This document shows, piece after piece, positions 101-39,548 of a stretch of 44,071 nt of DNA. Numbering within the stretch: position 1 is the stretch's first letter; each line of letters begins with the position of its first letter. The stretch comes from Candidatus Yanofskyibacteriota bacterium (lineage in GTDB: Bacteria > Patescibacteriota > Minisyncoccia > 2-02-FULL-40-12 > GWA2-44-9): positions 1-44,071 of the forward strand of contig CAIKUK010000021.1 in assembly GCA_903830625.1 (NCBI GenBank), given 5' to 3'. The position numbers and the translations under genes were made by a program. The notes beneath the pieces are model-generated. The model ran no database searches, had not been told where the DNA came from, and worked only from the letters and a program-made list of their open reading frames with translations.

Positions 101-130
101 ACCCCCACACTCATGCATGAGTGTGGGGGT
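101..130. repeat. Perfect 30-bp palindrome
   Basis: ACCCCCACACTCATG followed directly by its reverse complement, with no loop. It lies between the first palindrome and the surface-protein gene. The downstream TTGACA overlapping its right end has no well-spaced -10 box. It could act as a terminator-like hairpin for an upstream gene outside the window, or be a palindromic insertion. Confidence 0.88.
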
Positions 131-5430: not shown

Positions 5431-5552
5431 CCCGTTAGAGACATACTGGATGGTCTATTGCTAAAAAGTGGTGGACAGAGTATCTTAACGGGAATCAAAA
5501 ATAAACTAAATTAGGCACGGTTGCGGCCAGGTCGCAACCTGTCTCTAACGGG
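5431..5552. repeat. Palindromic element with CCCGTTAGAGACA ends
   Basis: A 122-bp unit bounded by a perfect 13-bp inverted repeat (5431-5443 and 5540-5552). It contains a second, partial end (TCTTAACGGG at 5483-5492) and an inner hairpin GGTTGCG/CGCAACC just before the right end. The right end abuts the ATG of the cohesin gene. Its ends match the elements at 7045-7322 and 14613-14683. Confidence 0.88.
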
Positions 5553-6617: not shown

Positions 6618-7052
6618 ATGCTCAATAATATTAACCATTGGTTGTCTAAAAATAGCCTGTATTTAGCCTGGATTATGGCTCTTATTTCTTTGGTGGGGAG
6701 CTTATATTTCAGTGAAATTGTCGGTCTCGCGCTTTGTAGTCTGTGCTGGTATCAAAGAATTTGCATGTATCCGCTGGTAGCGATTATCGGGGCGGGTATT
6801 ATCCGCCGAGATAAAGCCGTGGCCATATATGCTCTCCCTCTTAGCATTATCGGCGGGGGCATCGCTTTGTATCAAAACCTGCTCATTTGGCGTATTATCC
6901 CTGAGAGTCTGGGGCCGTGCGCGATTGATACTGTTTCCTGTGTAACCCAGAGTTTTGTCGTTTTAGGTTTTATCACTCTTCCATTATTATCACTGGTATC
7001 TTTTATTCTAATAACCGGACTGATGCTTGCAGATAGGAACTCGTCCCGTTAG
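6618..7052 (+). CDS. dsbB: DsbB/BdbC-family disulfide bond formation protein
   Basis: 144 aa with four predicted transmembrane helices. The first loop carries LCSLCWYQR (CxxC around residues 39-42), the quinone-side cysteine pair and WYQR motif of DsbB/BdbC. The second loop carries a further cysteine pair in CAIDTVSC. The family re-oxidises extracytoplasmic DsbA-type thiol oxidases and passes electrons to quinone. Two DsbA-like genes follow, so this is the electron sink of the module. The stop codon TAG lies inside the left inverted-repeat arm of the GIY-YIG cassette (CCCGTTAG). The last residues (NSSR) are therefore partly encoded by inserted DNA and the original C-terminus may have differed. 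Confidence 0.92.
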   Translation: MLNNINHWLSKNSLYLAWIMALISLVGSLYFSEIVGLALCSLCWYQRICMYPLVAIIGAGIIRRDKAVAIYALPLSIIGGGIALYQNLLIWRIIPESLGPCAIDTVSCVTQSFVVLGFITLPLLSLVSFILITGLMLADRNSSR

Positions 7053-7322
7053 AGCCATGACGTGCTACTATGTCTATATTCTGCAAAGTGTTAAGGATAA
7101 ACGTTGGTATACAGGGTTTACGGTGGATTTACGGAAGCGCTTTCGGGAACACAATGACGGGAAGTATACTTCGTGGACGAAAGGAAGAGGCCCATTCAAA
7201 CTGATATATTATGAAATGTGCATTAATAAAACAGATGCACGAGAACGGGAAGTGTATCTTAAAACTGGCATGGGCAAGCGCTATATTCAAAATAGGATTA
7301 AGCGCTTCCTGGCTCTAACGGG
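7045..7322 (+). mobile_element. Inverted-repeat-capped GIY-YIG cassette
   Basis: A 278-bp unit bounded by a perfect 13-bp inverted repeat: CCCGTTAGAGCCA at 7045-7057 and TGGCTCTAACGGG at 7310-7322. The enclosed GIY-YIG gene begins with the last base of the left arm and stops 4 nt beyond the right arm, so it fills the element. The left arm supplies the stop of dsbB and the right arm directly precedes the ATG of dsbA. The ends match those of the gene-less elements at 5431-5552 and 14613-14683, implying one family with empty and gene-bearing members. That the unit is mobile is inference. Confidence 0.72.
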
Positions 7323-7326
7323 ATGA
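7057..7326 (+). CDS. GIY-YIG single-domain endonuclease (UPF0213/YhbQ-like)
   Basis: 89 aa from ATG 7057; an upstream in-frame start at 7027 would overlap dsbB and read through the repeat. The GIY-YIG core is intact: YYVYILQS (strand 1), WYTGFT (YIG-equivalent), RKRFREHN (catalytic Arg helix) and the metal-binding Glu in AREREVYLKTG. These are single-domain nucleases of unclear natural substrate. The gene lies exactly inside a perfect inverted repeat, and its TGA overlaps the ATG of the downstream dsbA (ATGA). Placement between dsbB and dsbA suggests later insertion into an older dsbBA operon. It could move the element or be a passenger. Confidence 0.88.
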   Translation: MTCYYVYILQSVKDKRWYTGFTVDLRKRFREHNDGKYTSWTKGRGPFKLIYYEMCINKTDAREREVYLKTGMGKRYIQNRIKRFLALTG

Positions 7327-7964
7327 CTAAAGAAGTAAAAATAATGGCTTTGGTCTTTATTGTGATATTCGCTGGCCTTGGTTTTTTGATTGTCCGCAAT
7401 AATCAAACCGCACTGGCGCCCATATCCAAGGAACAGCTTATTAGACCAACCAGCCACAGTACTGTCAGCCCAAATGCGAAAGTTAATATCGTGGAATTTG
7501 CCGACTTTCAATGCCCGGCTTGCGCCGCCGCGTATCCGATTATGGAACAGATTCTCGCTTTTTATAAAAATAACCCCCAGGTAAATTTTGTGGCTCGGAA
7601 TTTCCCGTTGCCCCAACACCAGTACGCGCTTTTGACGGCCGAAGCCGCCGAAGCTGCGAGCGCTCAGGGGAAGTATTGGGAAATGTACGGACTTATTTAT
7701 ACCGGCCAGAATGATTGGGTTAATTCCGCCGACCCGATGTCAATCTTGGTGGGTTATGCAGCCCAATTAAAACTGGATGTAAACAAGTTTAAAGCCGAAG
7801 TGACTGCCAATAAATACGACAATATCATTCAACAGGACAAACAAGATGGCGTCGCTATCGGCATTAATTCCACACCCACCTTCTTCATTAACGGCGTGAA
7901 AGAAATAGGTATTCAAAGCGTCAGTGATTTTAAAGCAAGGATAGACTCAGCTTTGACTAAATAA
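7323..7964 (+). CDS. DsbA-family thiol:disulfide oxidoreductase, membrane-anchored
   Basis: 213 aa. An N-terminal transmembrane anchor (about 8-25) is followed by a DsbA/thioredoxin fold. The active site is in FADFQCPACAAAYP (CPAC) and the cis-proline loop in NSTPTFFING. Helical insertion domain lies between. Acts outside the membrane to oxidise secreted proteins, presumably recharged by DsbB encoded upstream. It overlaps the GIY-YIG stop by 4 nt and shares its last base with the next start (ATAATGAG), so it is tightly coupled in the operon. Confidence 0.92.
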   Translation: MTKEVKIMALVFIVIFAGLGFLIVRNNQTALAPISKEQLIRPTSHSTVSPNAKVNIVEFADFQCPACAAAYPIMEQILAFYKNNPQVNFVARNFPLPQHQYALLTAEAAEAASAQGKYWEMYGLIYTGQNDWVNSADPMSILVGYAAQLKLDVNKFKAEVTANKYDNIIQQDKQDGVAIGINSTPTFFINGVKEIGIQSVSDFKARIDSALTK

Positions 7965-14612: not shown

Positions 14613-14683
14613 CCCCGTTAGAAGTAGCCTCGCCGAGGTCCAAAGGACTCGCGCTTGGAGCGCGAGCGAGACTTCTAACGGGG
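14613..14683. repeat. Palindromic element with CCCCGTTAGAAGT ends
   Basis: A 71-bp unit bounded by a perfect 13-bp inverted repeat (14613-14625 and 14671-14683), with a GC-rich interior containing CTCGCGCTTGGAGCGCGAG. It lies between two minus-strand genes, upstream of one and at the 3' end of the other. Same family as 5431-5552 and 7045-7322. Confidence 0.9.
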
Positions 14684-14697
14684 TCAACTTCTATATT

Positions 14698-16119
14698 TTA
14701 TTGCCACGAGGAGAGCCACAGGCGATTTTGGAGGGCGTGAGCTTCCAGGGGTAGGCCATAAGAAAGCGGGGCAAAGTAGAGAAAAGCAATACCAGCTATA
14801 ACCAAAGCGCCGATTAAAATATTGCGCCGGTTTCGGCTTTGATCAATTAGGTAAGATAAGATTAGGATGGCAAAGATAAGCGAGGCAAAATAATGATAAA
14901 GAAACATGACTCGGCCGATACCGATAAAGGGCAGATAATTTAAGAAATAGCCACCGATGAGTATTAAGGGGACTGTATTAAGGGATAAGGCGAGCCGTCT
15001 TTTCGAAATCCATTCTGCCATAATACTTAATACTAAATACATAATACTGACTGTACTTGTCCACCAAATGACCGGATTACCGACAAGATAAATTTTGGAT
15101 TCGGTCGGCGTGGTTGATGAGGCTTGATTCCAATAGTAAATGGGTCGTATCATAAACGGCCAGGTGTACCACTTGGAACTGTAGGGATGAGTGGCGGTAA
15201 GATTTTTATTGGCTTGATACATCTCTACATTTAATTCGGTGAATTTTTGAAAGATGTTGAGCGGTTTTAAATTTGAATTTCCGGCGTAACCGGAATCTTG
15301 GAGAGAACTTTGAAAGGCCGGCGTCATAAAGGCGTCACCCTCGCCGGATTTGGTCAACAAGGAAAAATGAACCACAAAGATTGAAAAATAAACGGCAGTT
15401 GGAATAACGGCGAAATAGAGAATCAATTTTGGTAGTTGTTTGAGTATATTTTGTATTCCATAATACTTATCCCTTATCCCATGCCCCACGATTGTAATGA
15501 GCTCAATGATTCCGGCCAAACCGAGAAAGGCGATACCTGTCCACTTAATAGACATGGAAAGTCCGCCGAACAAGGCCATCAGTATTAAGGGGTATGTATT
15601 ATGGGATATGGCAGAATTTTGAGCCCTATTTTTATATTTAAAATAGAACAGCAGAGCCGAAAAACCGAAAAGAAGCAGGAACGGATCCAATAGGATAAGA
15701 CGCGATTGAGTAAGCAGGGCGTTTTCCAAGGCTACCATCATGCCGGCGCCAAAAGCACCGAGTGTGGAAAACCCCAATTCAAGAGCGAGGAGATATATTA
15801 CAACGACCAAGAGTGTTCCAGCTACAGTTGGCAAGAATCGCAGAGACAAATACTTATTGTCCGGGAATGTCTGGCCAATCTCAACAAAGCTATATTCCGG
15901 CGAGAAGTTGAATAACTTAGCGAATCCGGCGATAATGAGTTTGCCTCCCGGCGGATGAATGTCAAAATAGTATTGATGAGTGTAGTAGGCTGAAACAAAT
16001 TTGCCGAAGTGAACTTCGTCAAAAACCGTCTCGTTTGGATGGCCGAAAAAAGCAAAGTGGACGCCGATACTGACCAGGATGAGGATAATAAGACTTGTCT
16101 TCTTGGACATTACGACCAT
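14698..16119 (-). CDS. PMT-family protein mannosyltransferase-like membrane glycosyltransferase
   Basis: 473 aa with about ten transmembrane helices. The first loop has FDEVHFGKFVSAYYT followed by DIHPPGGKL, matching the DE and HPP motifs of dolichyl-phosphate-mannose-protein mannosyltransferases (GT39). C-terminal PLSYGLPL and RLWLSSW also fit. It would transfer a sugar from a polyprenyl phosphate carrier to secreted proteins, possibly the Thr/Ser-rich surface proteins in this window. Several copies of an AT-rich repeat (AGTATTAAGGGG, TATGTATTA) fall inside the gene, at about 14960-14990, 15023-15050, 15452-15480 and 15581-15610, and encode in-frame segments such as NTYPLILM and NTVPLILI in loops between helices. 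Alternative start: ATG 16110 (MSKKTS). Confidence 0.88.
   Translation of the reverse strand: MVVMSKKTSLIILILVSIGVHFAFFGHPNETVFDEVHFGKFVSAYYTHQYYFDIHPPGGKLIIAGFAKLFNFSPEYSFVEIGQTFPDNKYLSLRFLPTVAGTLLVVVIYLLALELGFSTLGAFGAGMMVALENALLTQSRLILLDPFLLLFGFSALLFYFKYKNRAQNSAISHNTYPLILMALFGGLSMSIKWTGIAFLGLAGIIELITIVGHGIRDKYYGIQNILKQLPKLILYFAVIPTAVYFSIFVVHFSLLTKSGEGDAFMTPAFQSSLQDSGYAGNSNLKPLNIFQKFTELNVEMYQANKNLTATHPYSSKWYTWPFMIRPIYYWNQASSTTPTESKIYLVGNPVIWWTSTVSIMYLVLSIMAEWISKRRLALSLNTVPLILIGGYFLNYLPFIGIGRVMFLYHYFASLIFAILILSYLIDQSRNRRNILIGALVIAGIAFLYFAPLSYGLPLEAHALQNRLWLSSWQ
15581..15610. repeat. AT-rich dispersed repeat inside the PMT gene
   Basis: AGTATTAAGGGGTATGTATT followed by ATGGGATATG. A near-identical segment flanks the four-helix-bundle gene (22524-22554 and, inverted, 22918-22949). 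Shorter copies lie elsewhere in this gene. Confidence 0.75.
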
Positions 16120-22520: not shown

Positions 22521-22523
22521 GAT

Positions 22524-22949
22524 AGTATTAAGGGGTAAGTAGTATGTATTATGGCAGACAAAATACAAAGCTTTACCGACCTCAACGCTTGGCAAAAAGG
22601 CCATACTCTTGCCATCAACGTCTATAAGCTCACTCGCGATTTTCCTAAAGATGAATTGTTTAGTTTAACGAGTCAATTGCGAAGAGCTGTGGTATCTATT
22701 ACGTCAAACATAGCCGAAGGATTTAGTAGGGGATTCCCTAAAGAAAAAATTCAGTTTTATACTATCGCGCTTGGTTCGCTGACTGAAGTTCAAAACCAAC
22801 TTTTGATTGCTCGTGATATTGGTTATATAAATAAAGATCAATTTCAAAAAATAGCAGAAGAAACTGTCGTGGTAAGCAAACTCATTAACGGATTAATTAA
22901 GAGCTTAAGAATTAGAACCCTTAATACTTAATACATATCCCATATCCCC
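22524..22949 (+). mobile_element. Repeat-bounded four-helix-bundle cassette
   Basis: A unit inserted between rpmE and prfA. The left arm (22524-22554: AGTATTAAGGGG, TATGTATTATGG) and right arm (22918-22949: CCCTTAATACTTAATACATA, ATCCCC) are imperfect inverted copies of the repeat also found in the PMT gene. GGGG and TATGTATTA blocks pair across the ends. The ORF start lies in the left arm and its stop in the right arm; prfA begins directly after the right arm. Mobility is inferred. Confidence 0.6.
22551..22931 (+). CDS. Four-helix-bundle protein (S23/IVP family)
   Basis: 126 aa. Signature: FTDLNAWQKGHTLAINVYKLTRDFP, LTSQLRRAVVSITSNIAEGFSRG, FYTIALGSLTEVQNQLLIA. This is the TIGR02436 four-helix-bundle family first described from intervening sequences of 23S rRNA genes; biochemical function unknown. 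A second member lies at 39060. The gene splits the rpmE-prfA pair and is bounded by imperfect inverted repeats. Confidence 0.93.
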   Translation: MADKIQSFTDLNAWQKGHTLAINVYKLTRDFPKDELFSLTSQLRRAVVSITSNIAEGFSRGFPKEKIQFYTIALGSLTEVQNQLLIARDIGYINKDQFQKIAEETVVVSKLINGLIKSLRIRTLNT

Positions 22950-23768
22950 ATGTCTCCTGAATACGACTGGAAGCAGTGGCAGAACTATCAGCCTGACCAT
23001 GCGGACAAACCGAAACCGGATGGTCCTAAGCATGGTCATGAGGCCATTATTGAAATCCGGGCCGGGGCCGGAGGCGATGAAGCGGCTCTCTTTGCCGCTG
23101 AAATAGCGGGCATGTATAAGAAATACTCGGCTCTCAAGGGTTGGGGTTTTGAAGTCATTGATTCCAACATGAACTCGCTGGGCGGATACAAATCCGTCGT
23201 CTTTGAATTACACGGCTCGGATGCGTTTGAAAAAATGAAATATGAATCCGGCGTGCACCGGGTCCAACGAGTGCCGGATACTGAAAAGTCCGGCCGAGTC
23301 CACACTTCCACTATTACTGTGGCGGTCTTAGCTAAAGCGACTGAAAAAGAACTGGTTATCCGGCCCGATGAAATTGAAGTTAGTTTTTCACGCGCCGGCG
23401 GACCGGGCGGGCAGAACGTCAATAAAGTGGAAACGGCGGTTCGCATTTTACATAAACCATCAGGAATTGTGATTTCTTCCCGTTCCGAAAGAAGCCAGCA
23501 GGCCAACCGGGAAAAGGGGATGGAAGTTCTGCGTTCCAAACTCCTGGAAATTAAAAGATTGGAAGAAAGCGGCAATGTTTCCGATGAACGTCGCAAACAA
23601 GTCGGCACCGGCGACCGCTCCGAAAAAATACGAACTTACAATTTTCCTCAAGACCGTATTACCGATCACCGCATCAAAAAAAATTGGGGCAACATCAACA
23701 AGATACTCGAAGGCAATTTAGACCCCGTCTTTGACGCTTTGGCGGAAGGCATGAAAGTAGAAAAGTAA
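22950..23768 (+). CDS. prfA: Peptide chain release factor 1 lacking the N-terminal domain
   Basis: 272 aa compared with about 360 in typical bacteria. The protein begins just before [20 protein letters not shown], so domain 1 (about the first 100 residues, a helical region that contacts the L7/L12 stalk base) is missing. The stop-codon recognition loop [14 protein letters not shown] (PxT, here PDT) and catalytic GGQ ([10 protein letters not shown], near 152-154) are intact. UAG/UAA recognition is therefore likely retained. Start ATG 22950 follows directly after the repeat arm of the upstream cassette. The TAA stop lies inside a 29-bp inverted-repeat arm. The short N-terminus may be lineage-typical or caused by the cassette's insertion. 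Confidence 0.93.
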
Positions 23769-23979
23769 AGCTGGACTGGATTTTTCTCAGGCTTCCGCTC
23801 GGACTATTTCTAGCCTCTTCTCCTCATTTCTTCGGCCAGCCGAAGCCACTCCTGTCAGGCCATGCGGACTTAGGCCGTTCCTGACATCCTCGGACTGGCA
23901 CCCGAAGAAATATCATCGAAGTAGCTGAAATAGTGGCCGATTGTGCAGATTGAGAAAAATCCAGTCCAGCTTTACTTTT
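23761..23979. repeat. 219-bp long-hairpin element with 29-bp perfect terminal inverted repeats
   Basis: Left arm 23761-23789 (AAAAGTAAAGCTGGACTGGA then TTTTTCTCA) is the exact complement of 23951-23979. Inner arms also pair: TTTCTTCGG with CCGAAGAAA, CTGTCAGG with CCTGACA, and CTATTTC with GAAATAG. The whole unit can fold into one long branched hairpin. The left arm carries the prfA stop codon and the right arm contributes the -35 region of the next promoter. Confidence 0.92.
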
Positions 23980-25756: not shown

Positions 25757-25814
25757 ACGATTGGGTAACAAAAAGTTACCCGCCAAAATTTTCCGAAGGA
25801 AAACTTAGGCGGGT
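25757..25814. repeat. Double hairpin with GCCTAA-TTTTC palindromic element
   Basis: GGGTAAC-AAAAA-GTTACCC is directly followed by CCCGCCAAAATTTTCC-GAA-GGAAAACTTAGGCGGG (25779-25813). The second hairpin matches the one inside the tRNA-Thr(GGT) group I intron (27620-27654). Confidence 0.88.
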
Positions 25815-26540: not shown

Positions 26541-26780
26541 ATGTATACTGTCTATATATTGAAGGATAGAACCGGGAAACTGTATAAAGGGGCAACAAGT
26601 GATATTCAGAGGAGATTGCGTGAACATAGATTTGGAGAAGTAATCACAACAAGTAAAATGAGAGACCCTCGTCTGGTTTACAAAGAAGAATATACATCAT
26701 GGGGAGAAGCTCGAAAACGAGAGGTATATTTAAAATCAGCTGCAGGTCGTCGGTTTCTTAAAACTAAATTGCCGGTATAG
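26541..26780 (+). CDS. GIY-YIG endonuclease beside tRNA-Thr
   Basis: 79 aa from ATG 26541; an in-frame start further upstream would translate the tRNA fragment and palindrome. GIY-YIG elements: MYTVYILKD, LYKGATSD, IQRRLREH (catalytic Arg), ARKREVYLKSAAGRRFLK (Glu). Its stop codon TAG falls inside the first ten bases of the intact tRNA-Thr(TGT) gene. The gene lies exactly between two copies of the tRNA 5' half. It may be a homing-type nuclease specific for this tRNA gene; that is inference. Confidence 0.85.
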   Translation: MYTVYILKDRTGKLYKGATSDIQRRLREHRFGEVITTSKMRDPRLVYKEEYTSWGEARKREVYLKSAAGRRFLKTKLPV

Positions 26781-27563: not shown

Positions 27564-27806
27564 AAATAATTGCCCGCAGAAAAGGTAACTTCTCTGTGAA
27601 TCCCGAATAACGGTTAAAGCCCGCCTAAGTTTTCTGAAAGAAAATTTAGGCGGGTAAGACCGTAGCGCTCTCGGATAAGTTTCTAAGCGTGCTTTAGCCG
27701 CTTAAGAATCTCTGTGGCGCTCGAACGACTGACAAGGGGTCCCGCCAGGGCGGGACAAGATACAGTCTAATCCTCATATAAGATTTTCAAAATTGAGGTA
27801 CTCATG
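27564..27806 (+). mobile_element. Group I intron in tRNA-Thr(GGT) with palindromic peripheral helices
   Basis: 243 nt, no ORF. Exon ends in U and intron in G (CTCATG|AAGG). P7 is GACTG (27727-27731) with CAGTC (27763-27767), next to AAGATACAGTC. The P8 position is a perfect palindrome GTCCCGCC-AG-GGCGGGAC (27739-27756). Another peripheral arm is the dispersed GCCTAA-TTTTC hairpin (27620-27654). Exon GGU pairs with intron GCC about 8 nt downstream with a terminal U-G pair. Confidence 0.85.
27620..27654. repeat. Dispersed palindrome inside the intron
   Basis: CCCGCCTAAGTTTTC-TGAAA-GAAAATTTAGGCGGG. It is nearly the same as 25779-25813 in the tsf-TPR intergenic gap, with both sides carrying the AAAAT/TTTAGGCGGG arm. 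Confidence 0.88.
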
Positions 27807-39059: not shown

Positions 39060-39548
39060 ATGGCTACTATTGAAAAATTCGAAGATCTTATTTGCTGGCA
39101 GAAAGCGCGTTTGCTGACAAAAGAGATATACCGACATTTAAATATTCAAAAATTTAAAAATTTAAGCATAGCGCCGGATTACGGATTCTGCGACCAGATA
39201 CAGCGCGCGAGCGTGTCAATCATGTCTAATATTGCCGAAGGATTTGAGCGAGGGACTAAACAAGAGTTCTTGAACTACCTCTTTATTGCCAAAGGTTCGG
39301 CCGGTGAGGTACGCGCCCAGCTATATGTGGCTCTGGATGCCGACTATTTAAATATTGAAACATTTAAATATTTAAACTCGCTCGCGACCGAGTGCTCGCG
39401 TCTTTTGTCGAGTTTTATCGCCAAAGTGAAGATTTCAGAGGTTAAAGGACTGCAATACAAAAAAGAGAAAACGGAAGCCCAGAAGAAAAGCGAAGAATTT
39501 GACTTGTACTTGGCTGAAATTATAAAGAAAAACAAGACTGGTGTTTAG
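39060..39548 (+). CDS. Four-helix-bundle protein (S23/IVP family), second copy
   Basis: 162 aa. [43 protein letters not shown] and [23 protein letters not shown] match the family seen at 22551. The C-terminus is charged and longer. Two internal stretches ([13 protein letters not shown] and [15 protein letters not shown]) are encoded by TTTAAATATT-rich repeats that also fill both flanks (39028-39059 and 39549-39580), suggesting that AT-rich repeat DNA has spread into the gene. It lies 31 nt after the adhesin. Function unknown. Confidence 0.9.

Follow-up and report, generated by a model that had tools for sequence, protein, structure and literature searches.

A GIY-YIG nuclease gene bounded by terminal inverted repeats: a candidate minimal transposable element inserted at bacterial start codons

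The DNA analysed here, hereafter referred to as the window, is a stretch of 44,071 nucleotides from a Candidatus Yanofskyibacteriota genome (G000). Between dsbB and a dsbA-like gene it carries a unit of about 280 bp (7044–7323) with terminal inverted repeats (TIRs), the sole gene of which encodes an 89-aa GIY-YIG nuclease (Table 1). The original prediction, made from the letters of the window, described a perfect 13-bp inverted repeat around this single ORF, and this description is exact: the left arm (CCCGTTAGAGCCA, 7045–7057) and the right arm (7310–7322) are perfect inverted repeats, of 14 bp if the outer T/A pair is counted (7044–7057 and 7310–7323), and the ORF matches the Pfam GIY-YIG model with an E value of 2.9e-16. 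The products of the neighbouring genes matched DsbB (5e-10), and Thioredoxin_4 (7e-29) and DSBA (4e-13). The tight packing of the three genes was also read correctly. The nuclease ORF and the left arm share one base, the A at 7057, with which the arm ends and the ORF starts; the final codon of the ORF, GGA, takes in position 7323, and the nuclease stop codon (7324–7326), just beyond the right arm, overlaps the dsbA ATG (7323–7325). The left arm provides the stop codon of dsbB, and the dsbA start adjoins the right arm. The frames of both neighbours were said to be kept, and this holds for the dsbA start; however, the last codons of dsbB were replaced by the insertion, since the stop codon of the dsbB orthologue at an empty site falls in the dsbA start region. 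The nuclease at this junction has its own ATG as start.

Table 1. Genes and repeat features of the window, with their coordinates
Feature	Position	Strand	Remarks
dsbB, upstream host gene	6618..7052	+	Stop TAG 7050–7052 inside left TIR
Left TIR TCCCGTTAGAGCCA	7044..7057	+	Exact inverted repeat; outer T is part of the variable terminal pair
GIY-YIG nuclease, 89 aa	7057..7326	+	Stop TGA overlaps dsbA start ATG (ATGA)
Right TIR TGGCTCTAACGGGA	7310..7323	+	Last A doubles as first base of the dsbA ATG
dsbA-like thioredoxin, target gene	7323..7964	+	Start codon adjoins element
Gene-less unit (MITE), CCCGTTAGA family	5431..5552	+	Flanks ATGAAT / ATGAAA; hairpin z -3.8
Gene-less unit (MITE), CCCGTTAGA family	14614..14682	.	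Direct repeat flanks GTCAAC / GTCAAC; hairpin z -7.6
28-bp perfect palindrome CCCCCACACTCATGCATGAGTGTGGGGG, second family (CCCCCACACTCA ends)	102..129	.	Flanks TTGA / TTGA

The 89-aa protein has the domain and the conserved catalytic residues of the GIY-YIG superfamily, with Y7, Y18, R28, H32 and E65 invariant in 59 members, G20 conserved and N79 near-invariant. Its predicted fold (pLDDT 92) and its sequence are closest, among solved structures, to the UPF0213 proteins (1zg2, 1ywl) and SLX1. Pfam identified in it the GIY-YIG domain only, and no transposase of known chemistry (DDE, HUH, serine or tyrosine). The median dN/dS was 0.24 (615 pairs), and the gene appears to be under purifying selection. 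The protein tree, which is poorly resolved (91 columns), mixes phyla, and the plasmid and phage collections contained only distant, YazA-like relatives (34–42% identity). Several GIY-YIG genes of the host genome have no TIR (on contigs C5 and C9, and at C21:26541 and C21:27218), so not every GIY-YIG gene fits. The last two lie at 26541 and 27218 of the window, in a tRNA-rich stretch bracketed by long, hairpin-like CCCGCC...GGCGGG repeats (25776–25813 and 27620–27657).

In the 598-kb host genome, the TIR 9-mer is present in 22 copies, 20 of them arranged as 10 convergent pairs, and its reversed control in 7; the repeats are therefore not due to chance. A search of related genomes for paired ends had been proposed, and it recovered CCCGTTAGA-N(245–275)-TCTAACGGG in at least 45 of the 384 genomes of the host's class (reversed control, 0). 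A scan of a species-level genome collection yielded at least 114 stretches with paired ends at the GIY-YIG spacing, in Patescibacteria, Omnitrophota, Desulfobacterota, Nitrospirota, Planctomycetota, Bacteroidota, Cloacimonadota, Elusimicrobiota and other phyla. Among 150 units at this spacing, 127 encode a GIY-YIG protein and two more are damaged or missed copies, all such counts being conditioned on the nine core TIR bases, since these were fixed by the search pattern. No adjacent convergent pair spanning more than 300 bp was found in the fetched loci, and no other cargo gene was therefore seen between these ends. Viral contigs yielded two spacing matches only, both without a GIY-YIG gene. 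A match in a Rossellomorea isolate (L216) was rejected as a filled unit, as it encodes no GIY-YIG protein and the 9-mer is not enriched there, and two 100%-identical Brumimicrobium units, considered as a recent jump, were left out of the count because their flanks also match, as in a duplicated or overlapping contig region.

A comparison of the ends covered 115 distinct filled units. The base that borders the 9-mer on its outer side is variable (T, C or G), yet it is complementary across the two ends in 112 units (shuffled, 53), and arm positions 10, 11 and 12 are variable yet paired in 115, 108 and 107 units, respectively (shuffled, 65, 71 and 50), with pairing at chance level by position 14. 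The TIR therefore consists of one variable outer base and 12 bp, so the perfect 13-bp repeat first described is valid for the dsb copy but not family-wide. The outer base differs even among close relatives in the nuclease tree and has therefore been re-set often, with its pairing kept. Co-variation of ends and GIY-YIG sequences, another of the checks suggested at the outset, was observed, as end sequences and protein clades shift together.

Target-site duplication, a feature expected of transposons, is absent at the dsb copy, where the flanks (CTCG and TGAC) show no clear repeat, but is present family-wide: an exact 4-bp duplication lies just outside the outer pair in 48 of the 115 filled units (shuffled 13.9, maximum 22) and in 29 of 60 gene-less units (shuffled 4.3, maximum 11), and about half of all copies are without one. 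Copies with T..A ends adjoin a start codon in 86 of 96 cases (56/61 and 30/35; null 2%), and their orientation before start codons is fixed, whereas only 9 of the 69 C..G-ended copies do so (null 2%). The pattern at start codons is ATGAA-T-[element]-A-TGAA, in which the outer A of the element and the duplicated TGAA rebuild the ATG of the target gene. Where the upstream copy still has its ATG, this codon is in frame with the nuclease, and the reading frame is open, in 27 of 40 units; in 77 of 115, the first bases of the flank complete the stop codon of the nuclease. The duplicated target thus often lends the nuclease both a start and a stop. Many of the C..G-ended filled copies have inverted flanks (TTYAC...GTRAA) rather than direct ones.

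The insertion sites are unrelated genes with only about 4–6 bp in common, and for this reason we do not favour the idea that the gene is a free-standing homing endonuclease, copied into cognate alleles by break repair, with incidental inverted repeats. Such a reading could appeal to the GIY-YIG domain as a classical homing fold and to a weak match of the protein, below the cut-off, to a group I intron endonuclease model. However, copies of one nuclease type occupy numerous unrelated gene starts with target duplications, and not one cognate allele or conserved long site, no DNA-recognition domain exists beyond the 89-aa catalytic domain, and gene-less copies bear the same ends and target duplications. 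Homing thus seems to us scarcely credible as an explanation of these units.

For the comparison of orthologous sites, almost the whole host genome was set against 346 kb of a congener (G002), each species being represented by one genome, mostly a metagenome assembly. The dsbB–dsbA junction is without the unit in G002 (L033; dsbA 77% identical) and in a confamilial species (G013; L035), and at both empty junctions dsbB continues straight into the dsbA start. The inspection of such junctions had been proposed together with the idea of mobility, and the outcome supports that idea: neither relative has the unit at the dsb locus, and the repeats are associated with filled and empty orthologous sites for many copies. 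There are 10 CCCGTTAGA units in G000 and 21 in the part of G002 examined, with one nuclease-bearing unit in each, and 27 of these 31 adjoin the start codon of an ORF that is 75 aa or longer; the genes downstream include rplM, rplO, rplR, rplB and rpsB (names assigned from sequence). In about 12 further cases, among them rpsB (92% identity), rplO and a 950-aa ORF (83% identity), a site filled in one of the two genomes is empty in the other, and the sister orthologue starts at the same codon without a unit; a single unit, common to both genomes, is older. The nuclease unit of G002 is at a different gene start and is identical to that of the window at 258 of 278 positions (93%). Synonymous difference (pS) between the two is 0.23, as against a minimum of 0.55 among 124 orthologous genes, so the unit entered at least one of the genomes later than the divergence of the two species. 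The nuclease frame of the G002 copy is interrupted by one stop codon, although this genome is rich in gene-less units.

The repeats might instead be regulatory or RNA-processing hairpins kept by the host at gene starts, with a GIY-YIG gene captured once and inherited vertically. The fixed orientation of the T..A-ended copies directly before start codons and the strong folding of the units are in keeping with such a role. However, the empty sites in sister-species orthologues and the target duplications at the flanks argue against a purely regulatory one, most C..G-ended copies lie elsewhere than at start codons, phyla are intermingled in the nuclease tree, and the nuclease unit that the congeners have in common is far younger than their split. 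We therefore consider this alternative very improbable, although the units probably affect the gene that follows, and such an effect, if regulatory, may go together with mobility.

The two gene-less units with the same end family, already recognised in the window by the original prediction, are confirmed, and that at 5431–5552 precedes the start of a 235-aa ORF for which the orthologous site in G002 is empty. Units of this type correspond to MITEs, as they are gene-less and have the ends of an autonomous element present in the same genome. Three end families were distinguished in G000, each with one GIY-YIG unit and gene-less units with its ends: the CCCGTTAGA family (one GIY-YIG and nine gene-less units), the CCCCCACACTCA family (one GIY-YIG unit and palindromic units of 28 and 62 bp, one of which is in the window and has its GIY-YIG-bearing relative at G000 C24:46797–47090) and the CCCGCACATAA family (one GIY-YIG-like copy with a stop and six gene-less units of 134–136 bp, most of them adjoining an ATG). 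Other GIY-YIG genes in relatives have still different ends, mostly beginning with CCC, and in an Elusimicrobiota genome the MITEs retain, at each end, about 20 bp of the nuclease unit. The median number of 9-mer copies was 42 in genomes with a filled unit versus 3 in those without (p 6e-8; control pattern not significant). A test of a second family in G061 (CCCTCACC ends) revealed no clear gene-less partners, and 15 genomes, some of them incomplete, have at least 15 9-mer copies but no close nuclease relative.

The latter genomes favour the view that the units are mobile TIR elements moved in trans by another enzyme, either a Y1/HUH REP-type transposase or a host recombinase, with the GIY-YIG gene as a captured passenger. 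The hairpin-forming paired ends, which look like REPINs, and a nuclease without known strand-transfer chemistry also point in this direction. However, no match to the Y1 transposase (PF01797) was found in G000 (complete) or G002, which excludes a Y1-driven REPIN-like system for the host genome, or in other copy-rich genomes (G061, 85 copies; G070, 83; G050, 64), and copy number is not related to the presence of Y1 (p 0.18). Moreover, GIY-YIG is the only gene seen between these ends, each end family has its own, and the gene shows signs of purifying selection, so that we regard a passenger role as unlikely, on a survey that covered transposases of the Y1 type.

Several other repeat arrangements were observed. 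UvrD-like helicase genes of the two congeners (33% identical) have start-codon units of two different end families (G000 C9:39814–39949 and G002 C6:6466–6534). In a Saccharibacteria genome (G391; L376–L380), TCTAACGGG-6 nt-CCCGTTAGA units arranged tail to tail recur at many loci, and the sequence beside one arm is conserved; these correspond to adjacent elements or to a distinct composite unit. The window itself contains repeated inverted sequences of the TCTGCCATAATACTTAATACTAAATACATAATACT type (14957–15050, 15578–15617 and 22521–22558, with 22692–22724 and 39213–39245); the SNIAEGF motif at 22692 and 39213 is typical of four-helix-bundle (23S IVP-like) proteins, and these repeats possibly mark another small gene bounded by inverted repeats. 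A 29-bp perfect inverted repeat (23761–23789 and 23951–23979; arms 161 bp apart) is unrelated to the CCCGTTAGA ends, and the contig opens with a perfect palindrome of 26 bp (1–52), which may be real or an assembly-end artefact.

With TIRs bounding a gene, and filled and empty orthologous sites, the reading of the dsbB–dsbA unit as a mobile element is well supported on sequence evidence. We infer from its association with the ends that the GIY-YIG protein is the mover, and we consider it probable that the unit is an autonomous TIR transposable element whose UPF0213/SLX1-like nuclease mobilises both itself and gene-less derivatives in trans. In the mechanism that we propose, the nuclease would recognise the paired TIRs, either in duplex form or folded into a cruciform or hairpin in single-stranded DNA, and would cut at the outer base pair of the element. 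It would make a staggered cut at a TNNA-like target, the TGAA of ATGAA start codons being favoured, and host polymerase and ligase would then fill and seal. The nuclease could be translated from the upstream ATG copy (Met-Asn-Pro-Val-Arg...), and the downstream ATGA would provide its stop and the restart of the host gene; insertion at a start codon would thereby borrow the translation start of a gene that would still be translated. Some observations do not sit easily with this explanation: GIY-YIG nucleases are hydrolytic and, to our knowledge, have no strand-transfer activity, a simple cut-and-fill model does not account for the inverted flanks, the G002 nuclease copy is interrupted despite the many gene-less units there, and the 15 copy-rich genomes mentioned above have no close nuclease relative.

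Bacterial DNA transposition is known to rely on a few chemistries, on DDE and HUH enzymes, on tyrosine and serine recombinases and on Cas1, and we know of no case in which a GIY-YIG enzyme drives it. On balance, and somewhat more tentatively, we suggest that these units represent a new class of bacterial transposons, in which the transposase is a minimal GIY-YIG nuclease of a single domain (89 aa, in an element of about 280 bp) that mobilises MITE families with co-evolving ends in many phyla, and in which insertion is specialised for start codons, rebuilding the host start and borrowing host translation signals for the start and stop of the nuclease. Start-codon targeting, target duplication, the multi-family pairing of GIY-YIG units and MITEs, and the spread beyond Parcubacteria were all missed by the original prediction. 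If this is correct, a hydrolytic GIY-YIG nuclease as the sole gene of a mobile element would imply a new transposition chemistry, the unit would rank with the smallest autonomous mobile elements yet known, and many small GIY-YIG genes of CPR genomes would be explained. Start-codon targeting with start repair would be a way of living in gene-dense, streamlined genomes, even before ribosomal protein genes. GIY-YIG is not mentioned in a review of prokaryotic MITEs (PMC10969869), the matches listed for the TIR 9-mer strings were all in unrelated papers, and a search of open-access papers gave no description of a bacterial GIY-YIG TIR element; with this scope, the novelty is provisional.

The closest proteins by sequence and fold are the UPF0213/YazA-YhbQ and SLX1 nucleases, SLX1 being a structure-specific repair nuclease of branched DNA; we know of no TIRs reported for either group. 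The rRNA genes of CPR bacteria contain unexplained GIY-YIG insertions and many short ORF-less insertions (PMC11270868), which the element might possibly explain; inverted repeats are not mentioned and no mobile TIR family is described there. Homing endonucleases of the I-TevI type and Penelope-like retroelements also place a GIY-YIG domain in a selfish element, but here there is no long target site, DNA-binding module or reverse transcriptase. In the REPIN/RAYT system, paired REP sequences are mobilised by a REP-associated Y1 HUH transposase (PMC3116915), and the resemblance extends to short, paired, inverted hairpin units in many copies, a nuclease gene with the same ends and gene-less units mobilised in trans; the units described here differ in having GIY-YIG rather than HUH, with no Y1 in the genome, and in their 4-bp target duplication and start-codon sites. 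Pairs of DDE-type insertion sequences and MITEs likewise have TIRs, a target duplication and internally deleted, gene-less derivatives, whereas the element described here, of about 270–290 bp, has in place of a transposase domain only an 89-aa GIY-YIG protein, and rebuilds the gene starts at which it is inserted.
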